Part shown: one piece after another, positions 10,890 to 64,000 of the stretch
Position numbering within the stretch: the first letter of the stretch is position 1
Layout: every line of letters begins with the position of its first letter
Source: Streptomyces sp. NBC_00162
Lineage (GTDB): Bacteria > Actinomycetota > Actinomycetes > Streptomycetales > Streptomycetaceae
Direction: 5' to 3'
Assembly (NCBI RefSeq): GCF_024611995.1
Contig: NZ_CP102509.1
Location: forward strand, 4,154,001-4,218,000
DNA: 64,000 nucleotides
Notes under the pieces: generated by a model
Database searches by the model: none
The model's input: the letters and a program-made list of their open reading frames with translations, nothing else
What the model was told of the DNA's origin: nothing
Position numbers and translations under genes: made by a program

Positions 10890-12272
10890 ATGGGGGACCG
10901 TGTCACGGGGGAGGAAGCCCGGCGCGTCAAGCGCGAACACCTCGGAGTGGGCGACCGGACCAAACACCAGGGCCGGACGGCCACGCCACTGAAGAGCCTG
11001 GTCAGAGCGCCGGGCACGCAGCAGCGCGTCTACCGTTTCCGCTTCTATCCGACCGCCGACCAGGCCGCTCAGCTCACCCAGACCTTCGGCGCCTGCCGCT
11101 GGGTCTACAACGAGGGCCTCGCCCTCCGGGTGAAGGCCTGGGAGGACCACCGGGTATCGCTGGGCTTCGCCGAGACCTGCCGGGCCCTGACCGGATGGAA
11201 GCGGATACCGGAGACCGCCTGGCTGAGGGAAGCCTCTTCCACGGTCCTCCAGCAGTCGTTACGGCACCTCGACTCCGCGTTCTCCAAATTCTTCAAGGGA
11301 TCGGCGAAGTACCCGCAGCGGAAGTCGAAGCACCGCTCCCGCGACTCGGCGACGTACGTCCGCACCGGCTTCCGGTGGGTCGAGAACCCCGAGCGTCCGG
11401 GTACGGCCTCGGTCACCCTCGCCAAGCAGAGCACGCCGCTGGACGTGCGCTGGTCGCGGGCGCTTCCACCAGGGCAGTTACCGGTGAAGCTGACGGTCAC
11501 CCGGGACCGGGCCGGCCGGTTCTTCCTCTCCGTACTGGTGGAGGAAGTGATCGCGCCGCTCCCCGAGGCGCTCTTCCCCGCCAGCCGCGAGCCGAAGGCA
11601 GTGGGCCTGGACCTCGGACTCGCGACGCTGGTGACGCTCGACGACGGGGAGAAGCTGCCGCATCCGCGGCTGCTGAAGAAGTACGCGAAACAGCTCGCCT
11701 CCTTGCAGCGCGATCTGCACAGGAAACGGAAGGGCTCGAAGAACCGGGGGAAGGTGCGGGAGCGTATCGCCCGCCTGTACGCCTCGATCGGTGATGTCCG
11801 TCGTGATCTGCTGGACCGGTTCACGACCCGCCTCGTGCGCGAGAACCAAGTGCTCGTGGTGGAAGACCTGCCGATCGCCAACCTCCTGCGTGCGGCGACG
11901 GGGAAGGGCCGCCGGCGCAAGGCGGCGCTGAACCGGTCCATCCTGGACGCGGCGTGGGGTGAGCTGCTGCGCCAACTCCGCTACAAGTGCGCGTGGTACG
12001 GGCGGACGCTGGTGATCGTGGACCGGTTCTTCCCGTCGACCCGGCGCTGCTCGGCCTGCCATACGAAGGGCCCGCGGCTCGACGTCTCGATCCGCGAGTG
12101 GACCTGCGCGGAGTGCGGGACGGTGCACGACCGCGACGAGAACGCGGCGGTGAACCTCCAGGACGAGGGGATGCGGCTGTACTGGACCGTGGCCGCCGGG
12201 CTGCCGCCGGGGCGGGTGCCGCCGAGTGTGATCAGGGCTTCGGAGCTGGTGGATCTCGTACCGGCCGCGTAG
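10890..12272 (+). CDS. tnpB: Stand-alone TnpB RNA-guided nuclease of the IS200/IS605 group
   Basis: About 460 residues from the ATG at 10890 (GGAGGGG upstream). The conserved part begins near QQRVYRFRFYPTADQAAQL, the wedge/N-terminal strand of TnpB. The catalytic RuvC triad is complete: Asp241 in VGLDLGLATLV, Glu325 in LVVEDLPIANLL, Asp416 in HDRDENAAVNL. Between the last two lies an intact four-Cys zinc ribbon (CSACH ... CAECG). TnpB proteins are programmable nucleases guided by an omegaRNA made from the transposon right end. No TnpA tyrosine transposase is present on either side, so this copy cannot move by itself. The first 40 residues are not conserved-looking and the true start could be a downstream GTG near 10948. 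Confidence 0.92.
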   Translation: MGDRVTGEEARRVKREHLGVGDRTKHQGRTATPLKSLVRAPGTQQRVYRFRFYPTADQAAQLTQTFGACRWVYNEGLALRVKAWEDHRVSLGFAETCRALTGWKRIPETAWLREASSTVLQQSLRHLDSAFSKFFKGSAKYPQRKSKHRSRDSATYVRTGFRWVENPERPGTASVTLAKQSTPLDVRWSRALPPGQLPVKLTVTRDRAGRFFLSVLVEEVIAPLPEALFPASREPKAVGLDLGLATLVTLDDGEKLPHPRLLKKYAKQLASLQRDLHRKRKGSKNRGKVRERIARLYASIGDVRRDLLDRFTTRLVRENQVLVVEDLPIANLLRAATGKGRRRKAALNRSILDAAWGELLRQLRYKCAWYGRTLVIVDRFFPSTRRCSACHTKGPRLDVSIREWTCAECGTVHDRDENAAVNLQDEGMRLYWTVAAGLPPGRVPPSVIRASELVDLVPAA

Positions 12273-60469: not shown

Positions 60470-62284
60470 CTACTTGATGACCGTGATCCGGTCCGCCGCC
60501 GGCGGGACGATCGGGTTCGCGGCCGTCGACTTGCCCAGGTAGGCGTTGAAGCAGTCCAGGTCGGGCGCGCCGACCAGCTTGTTCTTGTGCTCCTTCAGGA
60601 CGGTGAAGCCGTCACCGCCGCCCGCGAGGAACTCGTTCATCGCGACCCGGTAGGTCTTGGCGGGGTCGATCGCCGCGCCGTTGAGCCTGACCGAGTCCAC
60701 GACGATGCGGTCCGCACTGGCCTTGGTCATGTCGAGGGTGTACGTGAAGCCCTTCGACACCTGGAGGATCTTCGGGTTCGGGCCGTTGACCGTGCCGCTG
60801 ACCTGCTGCTGGAGCGCGGTGATCAGCTGCGCGCCGGTCAGGTCCACGATGTTCATCATGTTGTTGAACGGCTGGACCGTGTAGGACTCGCCGTACGTCA
60901 CCACGCCGTCGCCCTCGGCCCCCGAGGCCTTGTAGGCGAGGTCGGCACGGATGCCGCCCGGGTTCATGATGGCCAGCTGCGCGCCGCCCTTGTCGGCCGG
61001 GGCGAGCGCCTCGAGCTGCGCGTCGGCGATCAGGTCACCGAGCGGCTTCTCCGGCGCCTCGGAGCCGCGGCCGGAGATGTCGGCCGAGATGAAGCCCTGC
61101 GGGCGGTTCGCGATCGGGGCCGCCAGCTCGCTCCAGCGCTTGATCAGCTCGGTCATGTCCGCGGCCTTGGGCTGGTCGCGGGTGACGACCTTGTTGACCG
61201 GCTTGGGCGAGCTGACCGGCGTACGGACGATGTCCTTGGTCTGCCGGTCGTAGGTCAGCGTGGTGTCCGTGAACAGCCGGCCGTAGGAGGCGGCGGAGGT
61301 CACCATGCGCGGGTTGCCCGCCGGGTCGGGGATGTTGCAGGCGTACGCCTGGTGCGTGTGGCCGGTGACCAGCGCGTCGACCTTGGCGTCCACGTTCTTG
61401 GCTATGTCGACGATGGCACCGGAGATGCCGGCGCCCGCGCCGGGGACGTTGCAGTCGTAGTTGTACGCGCCGTTCGCCGGCAGACCGCCCTCGTGGATCA
61501 GCGCGACGATCGACTTCACGCCCTGCTTGTTCAGCTCGGCGGCGTACTTGTTGATCGTCTCGATCTCGTCGCCGAACTTCAGCCCCTTGACGCCCTCGGC
61601 GGTGACGACGTCCGGAGTGCCCTCCAGGGTGACGCCGATGAAGCCGATCTTCACGTCCCCCTTCTTCCAGATGAAGGTGGGGTTCATCATCGGACGCTTG
61701 GTCTTCTCGTCCGTGACGTTGGCGGCGAGGAACTTGAACTCGGAGCCCGTGAACTCCTTGCTGGGCTCGAAGCAGCCCTCGACCGGGTGGCAGCCGCCGT
61801 ACGCCATGCGGCGCAGCTCGGCCTTGCCCTCGTCGAACTCGTGGTTGCCGACGCTGGTGACGTCCAGGCCGAGCTTGTTCAGCGCCTCGATGCTCGGCTC
61901 GTCGTGGAAGAGCCCGGACAGCATCGGGCTGCCGCCGATCATGTCACCGGCCGTGGCCGTGACGGAGTACTCGTGGCCCTTGCGGGCTTCGCGCAGGCTG
62001 GTCGCGAGGTACTCGACCCCGCCCGCGGGTATGGCCTTGGTGGTGCCGTCGGCCTGACGTTCGGTCACGTTGCCGGACGAGCCCTGCGGGGGCTCGAGCG
62101 TGCCGTGGAAATCGTTGAACGACAGCATCTGCACATCGACGGTCCGGCTCTTGCCGGCACCGCCACCACTCGCGGCGCCGGCCGGCAGAGCGGCGGCGAC
62201 CATCGCCCCGGCCCCGGCCGTGACGGCGAGAGCGGTGAAGGTCAACCGGCGGGTGCGGCGGTGCCGTTGTGGCGTCGCTGACAT
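60470..62284 (-). CDS. Secreted 5'-nucleotidase/metallophosphatase
   Basis: 604 residues. A twin-arginine-like signal (RRTRRLTFTALAVTAGAGAM), then the calcineurin-like metallophosphatase domain with metal ligands in LSFNDFHGTLEP, AGDMIGGSPM, TSVGNHEFDEG, VALIHEGG and VTGHTHQAY, and the C-terminal 5'-nucleotidase domain (IMNPGGIRADLAY, VQPFNNMMNIVDLTG, NEFLAGGGDGF) with the substrate-stacking Phe residues. It releases phosphate from extracellular nucleotides. In S. coelicolor the homologue is a phosphate-starvation gene, to my memory, which fits with phoRP in this window. Confidence 0.95.
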   Translation of the reverse strand: MSATPQRHRRTRRLTFTALAVTAGAGAMVAAALPAGAASGGGAGKSRTVDVQMLSFNDFHGTLEPPQGSSGNVTERQADGTTKAIPAGGVEYLATSLREARKGHEYSVTATAGDMIGGSPMLSGLFHDEPSIEALNKLGLDVTSVGNHEFDEGKAELRRMAYGGCHPVEGCFEPSKEFTGSEFKFLAANVTDEKTKRPMMNPTFIWKKGDVKIGFIGVTLEGTPDVVTAEGVKGLKFGDEIETINKYAAELNKQGVKSIVALIHEGGLPANGAYNYDCNVPGAGAGISGAIVDIAKNVDAKVDALVTGHTHQAYACNIPDPAGNPRMVTSAASYGRLFTDTTLTYDRQTKDIVRTPVSSPKPVNKVVTRDQPKAADMTELIKRWSELAAPIANRPQGFISADISGRGSEAPEKPLGDLIADAQLEALAPADKGGAQLAIMNPGGIRADLAYKASGAEGDGVVTYGESYTVQPFNNMMNIVDLTGAQLITALQQQVSGTVNGPNPKILQVSKGFTYTLDMTKASADRIVVDSVRLNGAAIDPAKTYRVAMNEFLAGGGDGFTVLKEHKNKLVGAPDLDCFNAYLGKSTAANPIVPPAADRITVIK

Positions 62285-62523
62285 TTAGTCCCCTTTGTGG
62301 ACAGCGAGACAAACTTGGGAGGTCCGCCGCAGCCTATTGTCAACGCGCGTAGCACGACAGGGGGTAAGGGGTAGCCGACTGCTGAATTGTTAGAAGGTCG
62401 CGGCCGGACATCGGATACCTCTTTTGGGTGAACATGGGCCATATTGAGAGGTTCCCGGCCTTGCCGAACTGGTTGCCTGTGGGGGCGGGATGGCCGCTGC
62501 GGCGAGTGGAGAGGGGGCGGGCT

Positions 62524-64000
62524 GTGGCGCAGGGCACACGGAAGAAGGTGCTCGAACTCCGCCTGCTAGCAGATCCATTCGTGGTCGCTGCCCCAACTGG
62601 TGCCCGCATCCGAGACCGTCTGCGTCTGAGTTCGGCGGATGAGAAGATCCTGATGCTCCTCGGTGACCACCTCGGTCATCACGCTCGTGCTGATCTGGCC
62701 GAACGCGTCCGTATCGGCAAGGTGCCGGTCAAGGACAATCGTCGGGCGGAGCGTAAGCGCGCGCTGACGAAAGTGTCGTCGTCACGGTGGGCGGGGGCCA
62801 TCACCCGGGCCAGTGAGGACCAGTACCGGCTGTCATTGCGCTGTCTTTTCGATGAGCGGGCGTTGCTGCGCAGGGCAATCACGGAGATCGGCAAACGTCT
62901 GGCTTTACCCTGCGGCCGACGTGTGGGTGGGGTTCGGGGCTACCAGAGCCGGGCTGAGCGGGCACAGAAGCAGTGCCGGCTGCAGTCGTTCACCGCCCGC
63001 CTGACCGAGGTGGATCGGCGTATCGAGGGCGGGCATCCGGCGATCGTGCTCGGCGGGCGAAGGCTCGCGAGGGCACGGCACAACCTCGCCGACACCAGTC
63101 TCACGGAGAGCGAGTGGCGGGAGCGGTGGGACTCTGCCCGTTTGTTCCTGACCGCCGACGGCGAGTCCGGCGTGCCCTACGGGAACTACACGATCAGCGT
63201 TGACCCGGCCGACGGCAGCGTCACGATCGTCCTGCCCGAACCAATGCGGCACCTCGCCAACGCGCCCCGTGGCCGGTACCAGCTCGACTGCACCGTCACC
63301 TTCCACCACCGCTTGGATGAGTGGCTGGACCGGATCACCGCCGGCCAAGCCGTCCGCTACGACATCGTTCACGACCCGTCCCGCGGCCGCTGGTACCTCG
63401 ACGCCTCCTGGGCCACCCCGAAAAGAGTGCAGCCCACTGCGGACGAGCTCGCCGCCACCGGCGCCCGCCTGCTGGCGGTCGACCTCAACGCCGATCATCT
63501 CGCCGCCTGCGTCGTAGACACCCACGGCAACCCGGTCGGTGAACCCGTCACGGTGCCCACCGACCTGCCCGGCCCCACATCCCAGCGCGACGGCCGCCTA
63601 CGGGCCGCGATCACCGAACTCATCAACCTCGCCAGGGCGAACGGCTGCGCCGGCCTGGCGATCGAGAATCTCGGCTTCGCTGACGCCCGTGCCACAGGCC
63701 GCGAAACCATGGGACACGGCAGACACGGCAAGAACTTCCGCCGCGCCGTCGCCGGACTTCCCACCGCGCGCTTCCGGGAACGGCTGCGCGGCATGGCCCA
63801 CCACCACGGGCTCGTTGTGATCGCCGTCGACCCCGCATACACCTCCCGTTGGGGAGCCCAGCACTGGAAGCAGCCGCTCCAGCAACAATCGAAGACCACC
63901 GTCGTCACCGGCCACCACGCGGCCGCTGCGGCAATCGGCAGGCGCGCCCTCGGACACGGGCTACGGCGTCGGCCAGGTGTGACCGCACACGACCAGAGGA
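62524..64000 (+). CDS. Divergent TnpB-superfamily protein without zinc ribbon (3' end outside window)
   Basis: At least 492 residues with no stop before the window edge. The GTG at 62524 has GAGAGGGGG upstream; an in-frame ATG at 62434 is an alternative. The N-terminal 300 residues are helical and basic (VSSSRWAGAITRASEDQYRL) then beta-rich (YGNYTISVDPADGSVTIVLP, RWYLDASWATP). RuvC-like motifs: Asp320 in LLAVDLNADHLAACVVD and Glu381 in GLAIENLGFADARA. Where TnpB has a four-Cys ribbon this protein has VDPAYTSRWGAQHW and no Cys. The third motif reads TGHHAAAAAIGRRALG, with His465 where Asp is expected. Such proteins are annotated as TnpB-related transposases in Streptomyces. No TnpA is visible. 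Confidence 0.85.
   Translation, partial: MAQGTRKKVLELRLLADPFVVAAPTGARIRDRLRLSSADEKILMLLGDHLGHHARADLAERVRIGKVPVKDNRRAERKRALTKVSSSRWAGAITRASEDQYRLSLRCLFDERALLRRAITEIGKRLALPCGRRVGGVRGYQSRAERAQKQCRLQSFTARLTEVDRRIEGGHPAIVLGGRRLARARHNLADTSLTESEWRERWDSARLFLTADGESGVPYGNYTISVDPADGSVTIVLPEPMRHLANAPRGRYQLDCTVTFHHRLDEWLDRITAGQAVRYDIVHDPSRGRWYLDASWATPKRVQPTADELAATGARLLAVDLNADHLAACVVDTHGNPVGEPVTVPTDLPGPTSQRDGRLRAAITELINLARANGCAGLAIENLGFADARATGRETMGHGRHGKNFRRAVAGLPTARFRERLRGMAHHHGLVVIAVDPAYTSRWGAQHWKQPLQQQSKTTVVTGHHAAAAAIGRRALGHGLRRRPGVTAHDQR

Follow-up and report, generated by a model that had tools for sequence, protein, structure and literature searches.

A TnpB-type protein that lacks the zinc ribbon and has a proposed Asp-Glu-His RuvC site, probably still cutting, in a transposase-less insertion of Streptomyces sp. 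NBC_00162

Nuclease-dead TnpBs are sought by matching the RuvC positions to D, E and D. The catalytic centre of ISDra2 TnpB is D191/E278/D361 (PMC10097598). Nety et al. describe a TnpB clade, RIII-r4, with a rearranged RuvC-III, and state that such clades are not necessarily inactive (PMC10278001). Their study reports activity for 27 of 59 TnpBs and a small G-rich subset of TAMs. One active ortholog with a rearranged RuvC-II is named; no active TnpB with a rearranged RuvC-III is named in the sections of that paper covered here. The RuvC of Deinococcus-Thermus has His as its third residue, and the H143D variant is reported to be more active (PMC3834835). In Thermus RuvC, H143 coordinates metal A (PMC5389553), and D146 is a fourth residue (PMC3864405). 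IS607 is described as recombining at a GG overlap (PMC4058570).

We analysed a window of 64,000 nucleotides from Streptomyces sp. NBC_00162 (contig NZ_CP102509.1, positions 4,154,001 to 4,218,000) and the sequence beyond its right edge. Near that edge lies a tnpB-like gene. In our best reading its product is a TnpB-type protein that lacks the zinc ribbon, has a D-E-H site and probably still cuts DNA, and is not a repressor. The features of the locus are listed in Table 1.

Table 1. Features of the locus. Positions without a prefix are those of the window; positions with the prefix L009 are those of the locus sequence.
Feature	Position	Strand	Basis or remark
5'-nucleotidase gene	60470..62284	-	PF02872, 4.6e-37
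GGGT abutting the left end (target or TAM-like)	62369..62372	+	L057 empty site; same place in some other copies
Insertion, part in the window	62373..64000	+	Runs 225 bp beyond the edge to L009:4225; empty-site comparison and conserved right end
Left end (LE), 75 bases used in the profile	62373..62447	+	Profile of 7 copies, this one included
tnpB-like gene, GTG start	62524..64000 within the window	+	Continues for 218 bp; predicted structure matches Cas12f and ISDra2 TnpB
Asp320, RuvC-I residue	63481..63483	+	365/365 rows; aligned with the canonical TnpB Asp (hhalign)
Glu381, RuvC-II residue	63664..63666	+	364/365 rows; hhalign
YTSRWGAQHW, cysteine-free place where a zinc ribbon would start	63838..63867	+	Sequence; PF07282 score
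His464, proposed third RuvC residue, second in helix 463-475	63913..63915	+	363/365 rows; register from alignment ends
His465, column scored by the first-pass annotation	63916..63918	+	Varies by lineage
Guide-RNA-like scaffold, ending GGAACGGT	L009:4131-4225	+	RNA covariation and fold
Right flank that would be read as guide	L009:4226-4242	+	Match at its own place only
mshD	L009:4321-5250		TIGR03448, 1.9e-110

The insertion and its gene

The insertion spans 62373 to 64225 (1,853 bp). It lies between GGGT and ATCG, and between a 5'-nucleotidase gene and mshD. Its bounds follow from the nearest relative (L057, mshD 91% identical), which has the empty site with GGGT directly before ATCGAG and whose aligned flanks overlap by four bases. 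At this one site the junction fits a GG overlap, and a 3-bp GGT duplication may also account for it. We found mshD in 30 other genomes and compared the 18 of the same genus, leaving out the 12 of other genera. Both flanks aligned in 15 of the 18, and none of these 15 carried the insert; the other 3 had no aligned left flank. The gap at the site was -4 to 157 bp in 13 relatives; the remaining two had gaps of 340 and 761 bp. The sole match within the insert among the compared relatives was 29 bases in L072.

Since mshD lies beyond the insertion and the 5'-nucleotidase gene before it, the insertion splits a divergent promoter region. A motif at window positions 62339-62365, GTCAACGCGCGTAGC(A/G)C(G/A)ACAGGGG, stands before the 5'-nucleotidase gene, adjoins the insertion, and is kept in the 6 relatives shown. 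Its role could be that of a promoter or an operator.

The right end was compared in 17 close-clade loci, including the query. It is conserved to (A/G)(A/G)(G/C)A(A/G)(C/T)GGT and diverges immediately beyond. L017 and L090 have a common flank, so the 17 copies have 16 different right flanks. These two are probably a single ancestral insertion in two genomes. L017 is without a stretch that includes the RuvC-III codons and keeps the RNA end.

The left-end profile was made from 7 copies picked with GGGT in view, and was searched on 22 loci that included those 7. Matches at E<=1e-6 were obtained for 16 of the 22 (the 7 seeds and 9 of the 15 others); five more matched at E 0.002-9, and one did not match. 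GGGT adjoins the left end in three of the nine nonseed matches (L017, which is orthologous to the seed L090, L050, and L015). Two rows of identical sequence have GGGC there, and four have other letters. The count of three in nine is a point against the leading reading set out below. The sister clade contained eight sites in one genome (a ninth locus is a duplicate), with copies 89-94% identical. All eight have the right end TAGGAACGGT, and seven have GGGT at the left junction.

The tnpB-like frame runs from a GTG at 62524 (+) to a TAG ending at 64218 (L009:4218), 218 bp past the window edge. The gene is complete and encodes 564 amino acids. The downstream sequence bears out the first-pass annotation, which had described an intact, well-initiated gene of at least 492 codons. 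That annotation also gave the positions of Asp320, Glu381, and YTSRWGAQHW correctly. The RuvC-III text is GHHAAAAAIGRR, and its two His are residues 464 and 465, as confirmed here.

No cysteine is present between residues 381 and 464. The match to the zinc-ribbon model PF07282 spans 3-29 of its 60 profile positions and scores 17.4 bits, short of the 26.3 that the model requires. The first-pass description of a zinc-ribbon-less TnpB relative therefore stands. The guided_TnpB model NF040570 scored 40.2 bits (E 2.5e-10), below its cut-off of 100, and the HD and Pseudomonas relatives described below were likewise under that cut-off. Homologues at E<=1e-5 numbered 5,177 among 7,994 scored candidates, which by sequence score is beyond chance. 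Nearly all of those with a visible name, among the 120 homologues listed, are called hypothetical protein. The window also contains a second TnpB at 11955-12158 (+; L003), with PF07282 at 6.2e-23 and a canonical DRDENAA RuvC-III.

Over the greater part of its length the protein has a predicted fold like that of TnpB and Cas12f, and its RuvC domain is C-terminal. The best 50 Foldseek matches listed included Cas12f, Cas12k, Fanzor, and RuvC; ISDra2 TnpB was found instead in the VIA list. A single-sequence search of solved structures gave nothing relevant, and a profile search of them gave just Cas12f matches (E 0.02-0.17). The protein tail, residues 484-564, is predicted to be disordered. Because the protein departs from three typical TnpB features (the sequence-model cut-off, the D-E-D triad, and the zinc ribbon) and the insertion is without an IS607 transposase, we class the first as a TnpB-type branch and the second as an IS607 derivative, and neither as a typical member.

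Residues of the RuvC site

We aligned 365 distinct proteins, made up of three lists of the best 120 matches and 5 others. They form three groups: 123 rows named HH, 120 named HD, and 122 distant rows. Since the rows come from best-120 lists, near relatives weigh heavily in the counts. The groups are about 21-25% identical to each other and still keep Asp320 and Glu381. The canonical Asp-Glu-Asp triad is absent; Asp320 and Glu381 are present, and the third place is His464 in 363 of the 365 rows. The two rows without His464 are L105 (Ala) and P0280 (gap). An earlier alignment, whose 147 HH rows included some genes more than once because they occur in several loci, gave the same picture. L105 is a distant relative on a Calothrix plasmid and reads NSASSAAMVIGRR here. 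If any member is truly inactive, L105 is the better candidate.

The first-pass annotation had compared column 465, read it as the loss of one catalytic acid, and proposed binding without cutting. This column varies by lineage. Among the best-match rows it is His in 123 of 123 HH rows and Asp in 120 of 120 HD rows. In the 122 distant rows it is Gln in 111, Glu in 4, Ala in 2, Ser, Lys, Met, and His in 1 each, and a gap in 1. We rejected a dead site read from column 465, which holds H, D, Q, E, A, K, M, or S according to lineage. Neither the loss nor the noncutting role finds support, because His464 is fixed beside Asp320 and Glu381 and the compared column is variable. The H-D-A-A-A that the annotation gave for relatives was right for the sister clade, where D at 465 is the rule and stands in all of the 120 best matches to one member; exceptions are HE in L018 and HA in L019. 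By the annotation's own account, its reading would fall if His were normal in active members of the family. His is normal at 464 in the rows compared, and these members may be active. His465 may have a role of its own in the close clade, where it is invariant.

On alignment evidence, 464 and not 465 is the residue conserved family-wide, and this is a stronger argument than the structural register. That register was taken from alignment ends, not from coordinates. The AlphaFold models of the query (pLDDT 79.3) and a distant relative (86.9) were built from different alignments, and both place His second (464) in a helix 463-475. By the VIA alignment ends, if the last helix is ungapped, 464 corresponds to ISDra2 TnpB 361 (8bf8; 8exa and 8h1j with the distant model) and to Thermus RuvC 143 (4ep4, 4ld0, 6s16). 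Identical arithmetic on AsCas12f chains gives 399-402; this spread exceeds the one residue between 464 and 465, so the register by itself does not separate them. The hhalign profile comparison with six canonical TnpBs of the same genome covers RuvC-I and RuvC-II and ends before RuvC-III.

As a yardstick, 31 of the 564 columns reach 90% in all three groups, and 61 columns are invariant among the HH rows, H464 and H465 included. Judged by these columns, invariance is not peculiar to the triad, which is a point against the D-E-H reading. The search for compensating acids was negative: apart from D320 and E381, the sole acidic column at or above 90% in all three groups is Glu214, far in the N-terminal part. 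Asp436 was rejected as a substitute, being Asn in 118 of the 122 distant rows.

A 57-row tree has Asp, Glu, and His464 in every row. This says less than is apparent, since the motif filter of the script had removed L105, which lacks His464, and L121. The HH label requires 3 changes on this tree, and the HH row P0292 falls among the distant rows. L119 (G298), an HD-type protein on a long branch, lies within the HH clade and hints at reversals at 465. Another HH protein, P0081, reads RHHADAV; by register its Asp at the 467 place corresponds to D146 of Thermus RuvC.

We judge with moderate confidence that the D-E-H site cuts, given the invariance of the triad and the solved precedent for His. It could instead bind metal and DNA and leave the DNA uncut, the protein being nuclease-dead, still guided, and of use to the element in other ways (for instance, marking the empty site or regulating the transposase). 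The canonical third Asp is missing throughout the 365 rows, and D and E might be retained for structure or metal binding only. His may also reduce activity, Asp being better in Thermus RuvC (PMC3834835), which is a point against cutting. Some TnpBs are further reported to process RNA and to show no double-stranded DNA cutting in a screen (PMC10278001). Against this stand a His-containing RuvC that is active (PMC3834835), the retention of Asp320 and Glu381 between such divergent groups, and selection on the RuvC part that is not relaxed (below). We consider a dead but guided protein rather unlikely.

The 3' RNA, its flanks, and the transposase

About 95 nt at the 3' end of the insertion form a covarying, guide-RNA-like structure that abuts the right flank. 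A structured RNA at the 3' end of the gene that reaches the right end is a TnpB feature, and it is present here. The last 95-110 nt of 17 copies mostly give a closed, branched fold. Of the 17 single-sequence folds, 15 are closed by the outer stem, the exceptions being L091 and L088. In the four-helix structure, 88.5% of cells are paired, compared with 28-49% in slid controls, and 31 cells are changed on both sides, compared with 12.7 in shuffles (0 of 500 as high). Six of the seven pairs of the main hairpin are doubly changed. The covariation score of the 17-sequence alignment was 0.233, with 0.130 in shuffles (0 of 500), and the fold of the query RNA had a z of -2.66. Helix 3, the outer right-end stem, is a weak point with 66% paired. 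Neither the number of pairs with double change (7) nor that of further pair types (17) was above the shuffles (149 and 460 of 500). Comparing 2,051 bases with Rfam yielded nothing at E<=1. The RNA-model search of 61 genomes gave five matches, all at the 3' ends of HH tnpB genes, and no orphan RNA; all five are loci used to build the model, hence no independent test.

The RNA may reach further into the gene. Divergence at 4-fold third bases was 0.473 over codons 13-480, dropping from about 0.55 to 0.39 along the gene. It was 0.216 over codons 481-535 and 0.277 over codons 536-564. The low value at codons 481-535 indicates that constraint begins upstream of the aligned RNA. These codons (L009:3964-4128, of which the first 37 bases are window 63964-64000) have the strongest synonymous constraint. 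Since it is strongest there, the functional RNA may be about 260 nt. The first-pass suggestion of an RNA-guided protein is upheld at the level of this anatomy, a 3' RNA abutting the flank.

The same annotation had suggested that the protein could act on a host promoter. Such a domesticated, TldR-like repressor would suit an insertion in the divergent region of the 5'-nucleotidase gene and mshD, and TldRs are described as TnpBs with an inactivated RuvC domain (PMC13418256). The ends are intact, and the relatives with both flanks aligned at this site are without the insert. The 17 copies have their 16 different flanks. With up to 3 mismatches allowed, a 20-mer of 3 right-end bases and 17 flank bases matched the 9.02-Mb genome once, at its own position. 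For one TldR, guides down to 6 nt are reported to work (PMC13418256), so a short seed could escape the 20-mer search. Because His occupies the third position across the whole family, no loss particular to one lineage can be scored. The claim of action on a host promoter found no support in these comparisons, and we regard a repressor as highly improbable.

Selection was measured in 14 close-clade genes. The median dN/dS was 0.237 over 91 pairs. It was 0.246 in RuvC and 0.234 in the N-terminal part (90 pairs). The tail, residues 484-564, had a dN/dS of 0.61 with a dS of 0.41, and the core had 0.24 and 0.79. The frame is intact and under purifying selection, RuvC included, and the first-pass statement that this is not simple decay is sustained. 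Selection across the family is no proof that this copy works now. The wider family was found at E<=0.001 in 45 of 150 genomes of the genus, its own included, with many matches partial or interrupted. At E<=1e-60 it was found in 5 of 198 genomes of the phylum, again including its own. This patchy distribution is as expected of a mobile element.

No transposase lies within the insertion, and there is no room for one at 62373-62524 or from tnpB to the right end. The IS607 transposase model gave nothing over the cut-off in the genome. Two partial matches under it, L124 (G000:C1:8367934-8368218) and L125 (G000:C1:4293894-4294046), comprise one resolvase part and one HTH part. We rejected an IS607 transposase as helper on these two matches, and a Y1 transposase because the single Y1 match in the genome lies beside a different TnpB. 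Own-genome copies are 80% identical, and together with the IS607 result this makes no recent jump evident.

Transposases are present beside relatives. L106, on a Streptomyces plasmid, has the HH text and is 66.7% identical. It has an IS607 transposase just upstream (NF033518 2e-42, over the cut-off) and matching left and right ends outside, with the left end preceding the transposase gene. L102, an HD protein of the sister clade, has one alongside (NF033518 5.1e-56). So does L104, a distant Pseudomonas relative (annotation and Pfam resolvase domain). As L106 carries its transposase between matching ends, the present insertion appears to be an IS607-type derivative that lacks the transposase. 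The reported GG overlap of IS607 (PMC4058570) fits the GGT at both junctions here. The insertion, its ends, the RNA, and the kinship with IS607 TnpBs are well supported, and we hold them with high confidence.

This copy could also be an ageing insertion-sequence remnant with no present function. Consistent with this are the lack of a transposase in this copy and of any match above the cut-off in its genome, the numerous matches across the genus that are partial or interrupted, and the identity of just 80% among the own-genome copies. The frame is intact, dN/dS is low over the 91 pairs of 14 copies, and the RNA hairpin is conserved. We consider a remnant improbable.

Proposed mechanism and comparison with known systems

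Our leading reading, held with moderate confidence, is a TnpB-type protein of a transposase-less IS607-type derivative that is guided and cuts the empty donor site with a D-E-H RuvC. The 3' RNA would carry the right flank as guide and load the protein. The reRNA would consist of the scaffold ending GGAACGGU and then the flank. The complex would recognise the donor site when empty, where GGGT precedes the sequence of the guide. This site would be cut by the RuvC domain, with His464 in the role that the third Asp usually has, like His143 in Thermus RuvC. Chromosomes that retain the element would be favoured by such cutting. Mobility would require an IS607 transposase from elsewhere, none being over the cut-off in the genome.

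More widely, the chances seem about even that a large TnpB-type branch cuts DNA with an Asp-Glu-His RuvC and no zinc ribbon, in parallel with the RuvC of Deinococcus-Thermus. The branch was sampled in Actinomycetota, Pseudomonadota, and a Thermaerobacter; the cyanobacterial relative is without His464. The D-E-D rule would call the family dead, yet its D, E, and H show the strict conservation that a working site would have. If the family cuts, the third metal ligand of a TnpB/Cas12 nuclease would be replaceable in nature, a rule that equates the absence of a third Asp with a dead enzyme would place thousands of guided nucleases in the wrong class and would have to allow for His, and a nuclease scaffold free of the ribbon, with a G-rich target motif, would become available. 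If the family does not cut, a TnpB branch that is widespread would persist all the same, and this would call into question cutting as the contribution of TnpB to the element.

A literature search at the level of titles and abstract openings gave no description of His as the third residue in TnpB. The family resembles RIII-r4 (Nety et al. 2023, Altae-Tran et al. 2023) as a TnpB clade with an atypical RuvC-III, a comparison made at the level of the published description. The two may be the same clade, in which case the family here would be less novel.

Compared with ISDra2 TnpB (IS200/IS605; 8bf8, 8exa, 8h1j), the third residue is His and not Asp, and the CCCC zinc ribbon is absent. The left-flank motif is G rich, and the protein is longer, with an Arg/Pro-rich tail, predicted to be disordered, that overlaps the RNA. 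As in the IS607 family, a serine transposase is found beside HH, HD, and Pseudomonas relatives, and GG(T) at both junctions would fit the GG overlap of that family; unlike that family, this copy is without the gene for a serine transposase with an N-terminal HTH. Like TldR, the protein is TnpB derived and its third RuvC residue is not Asp. Unlike TldR, it keeps D and E, and the insertion keeps its ends and variable flanks. Unlike Thermus RuvC with its D146, nearly all rows have Ala467 at that place. Like Thermus thermophilus RuvC, the protein has a predicted RNase H fold with Asp, Glu, and a third residue, His, at what the alignment ends place in the same helix register.
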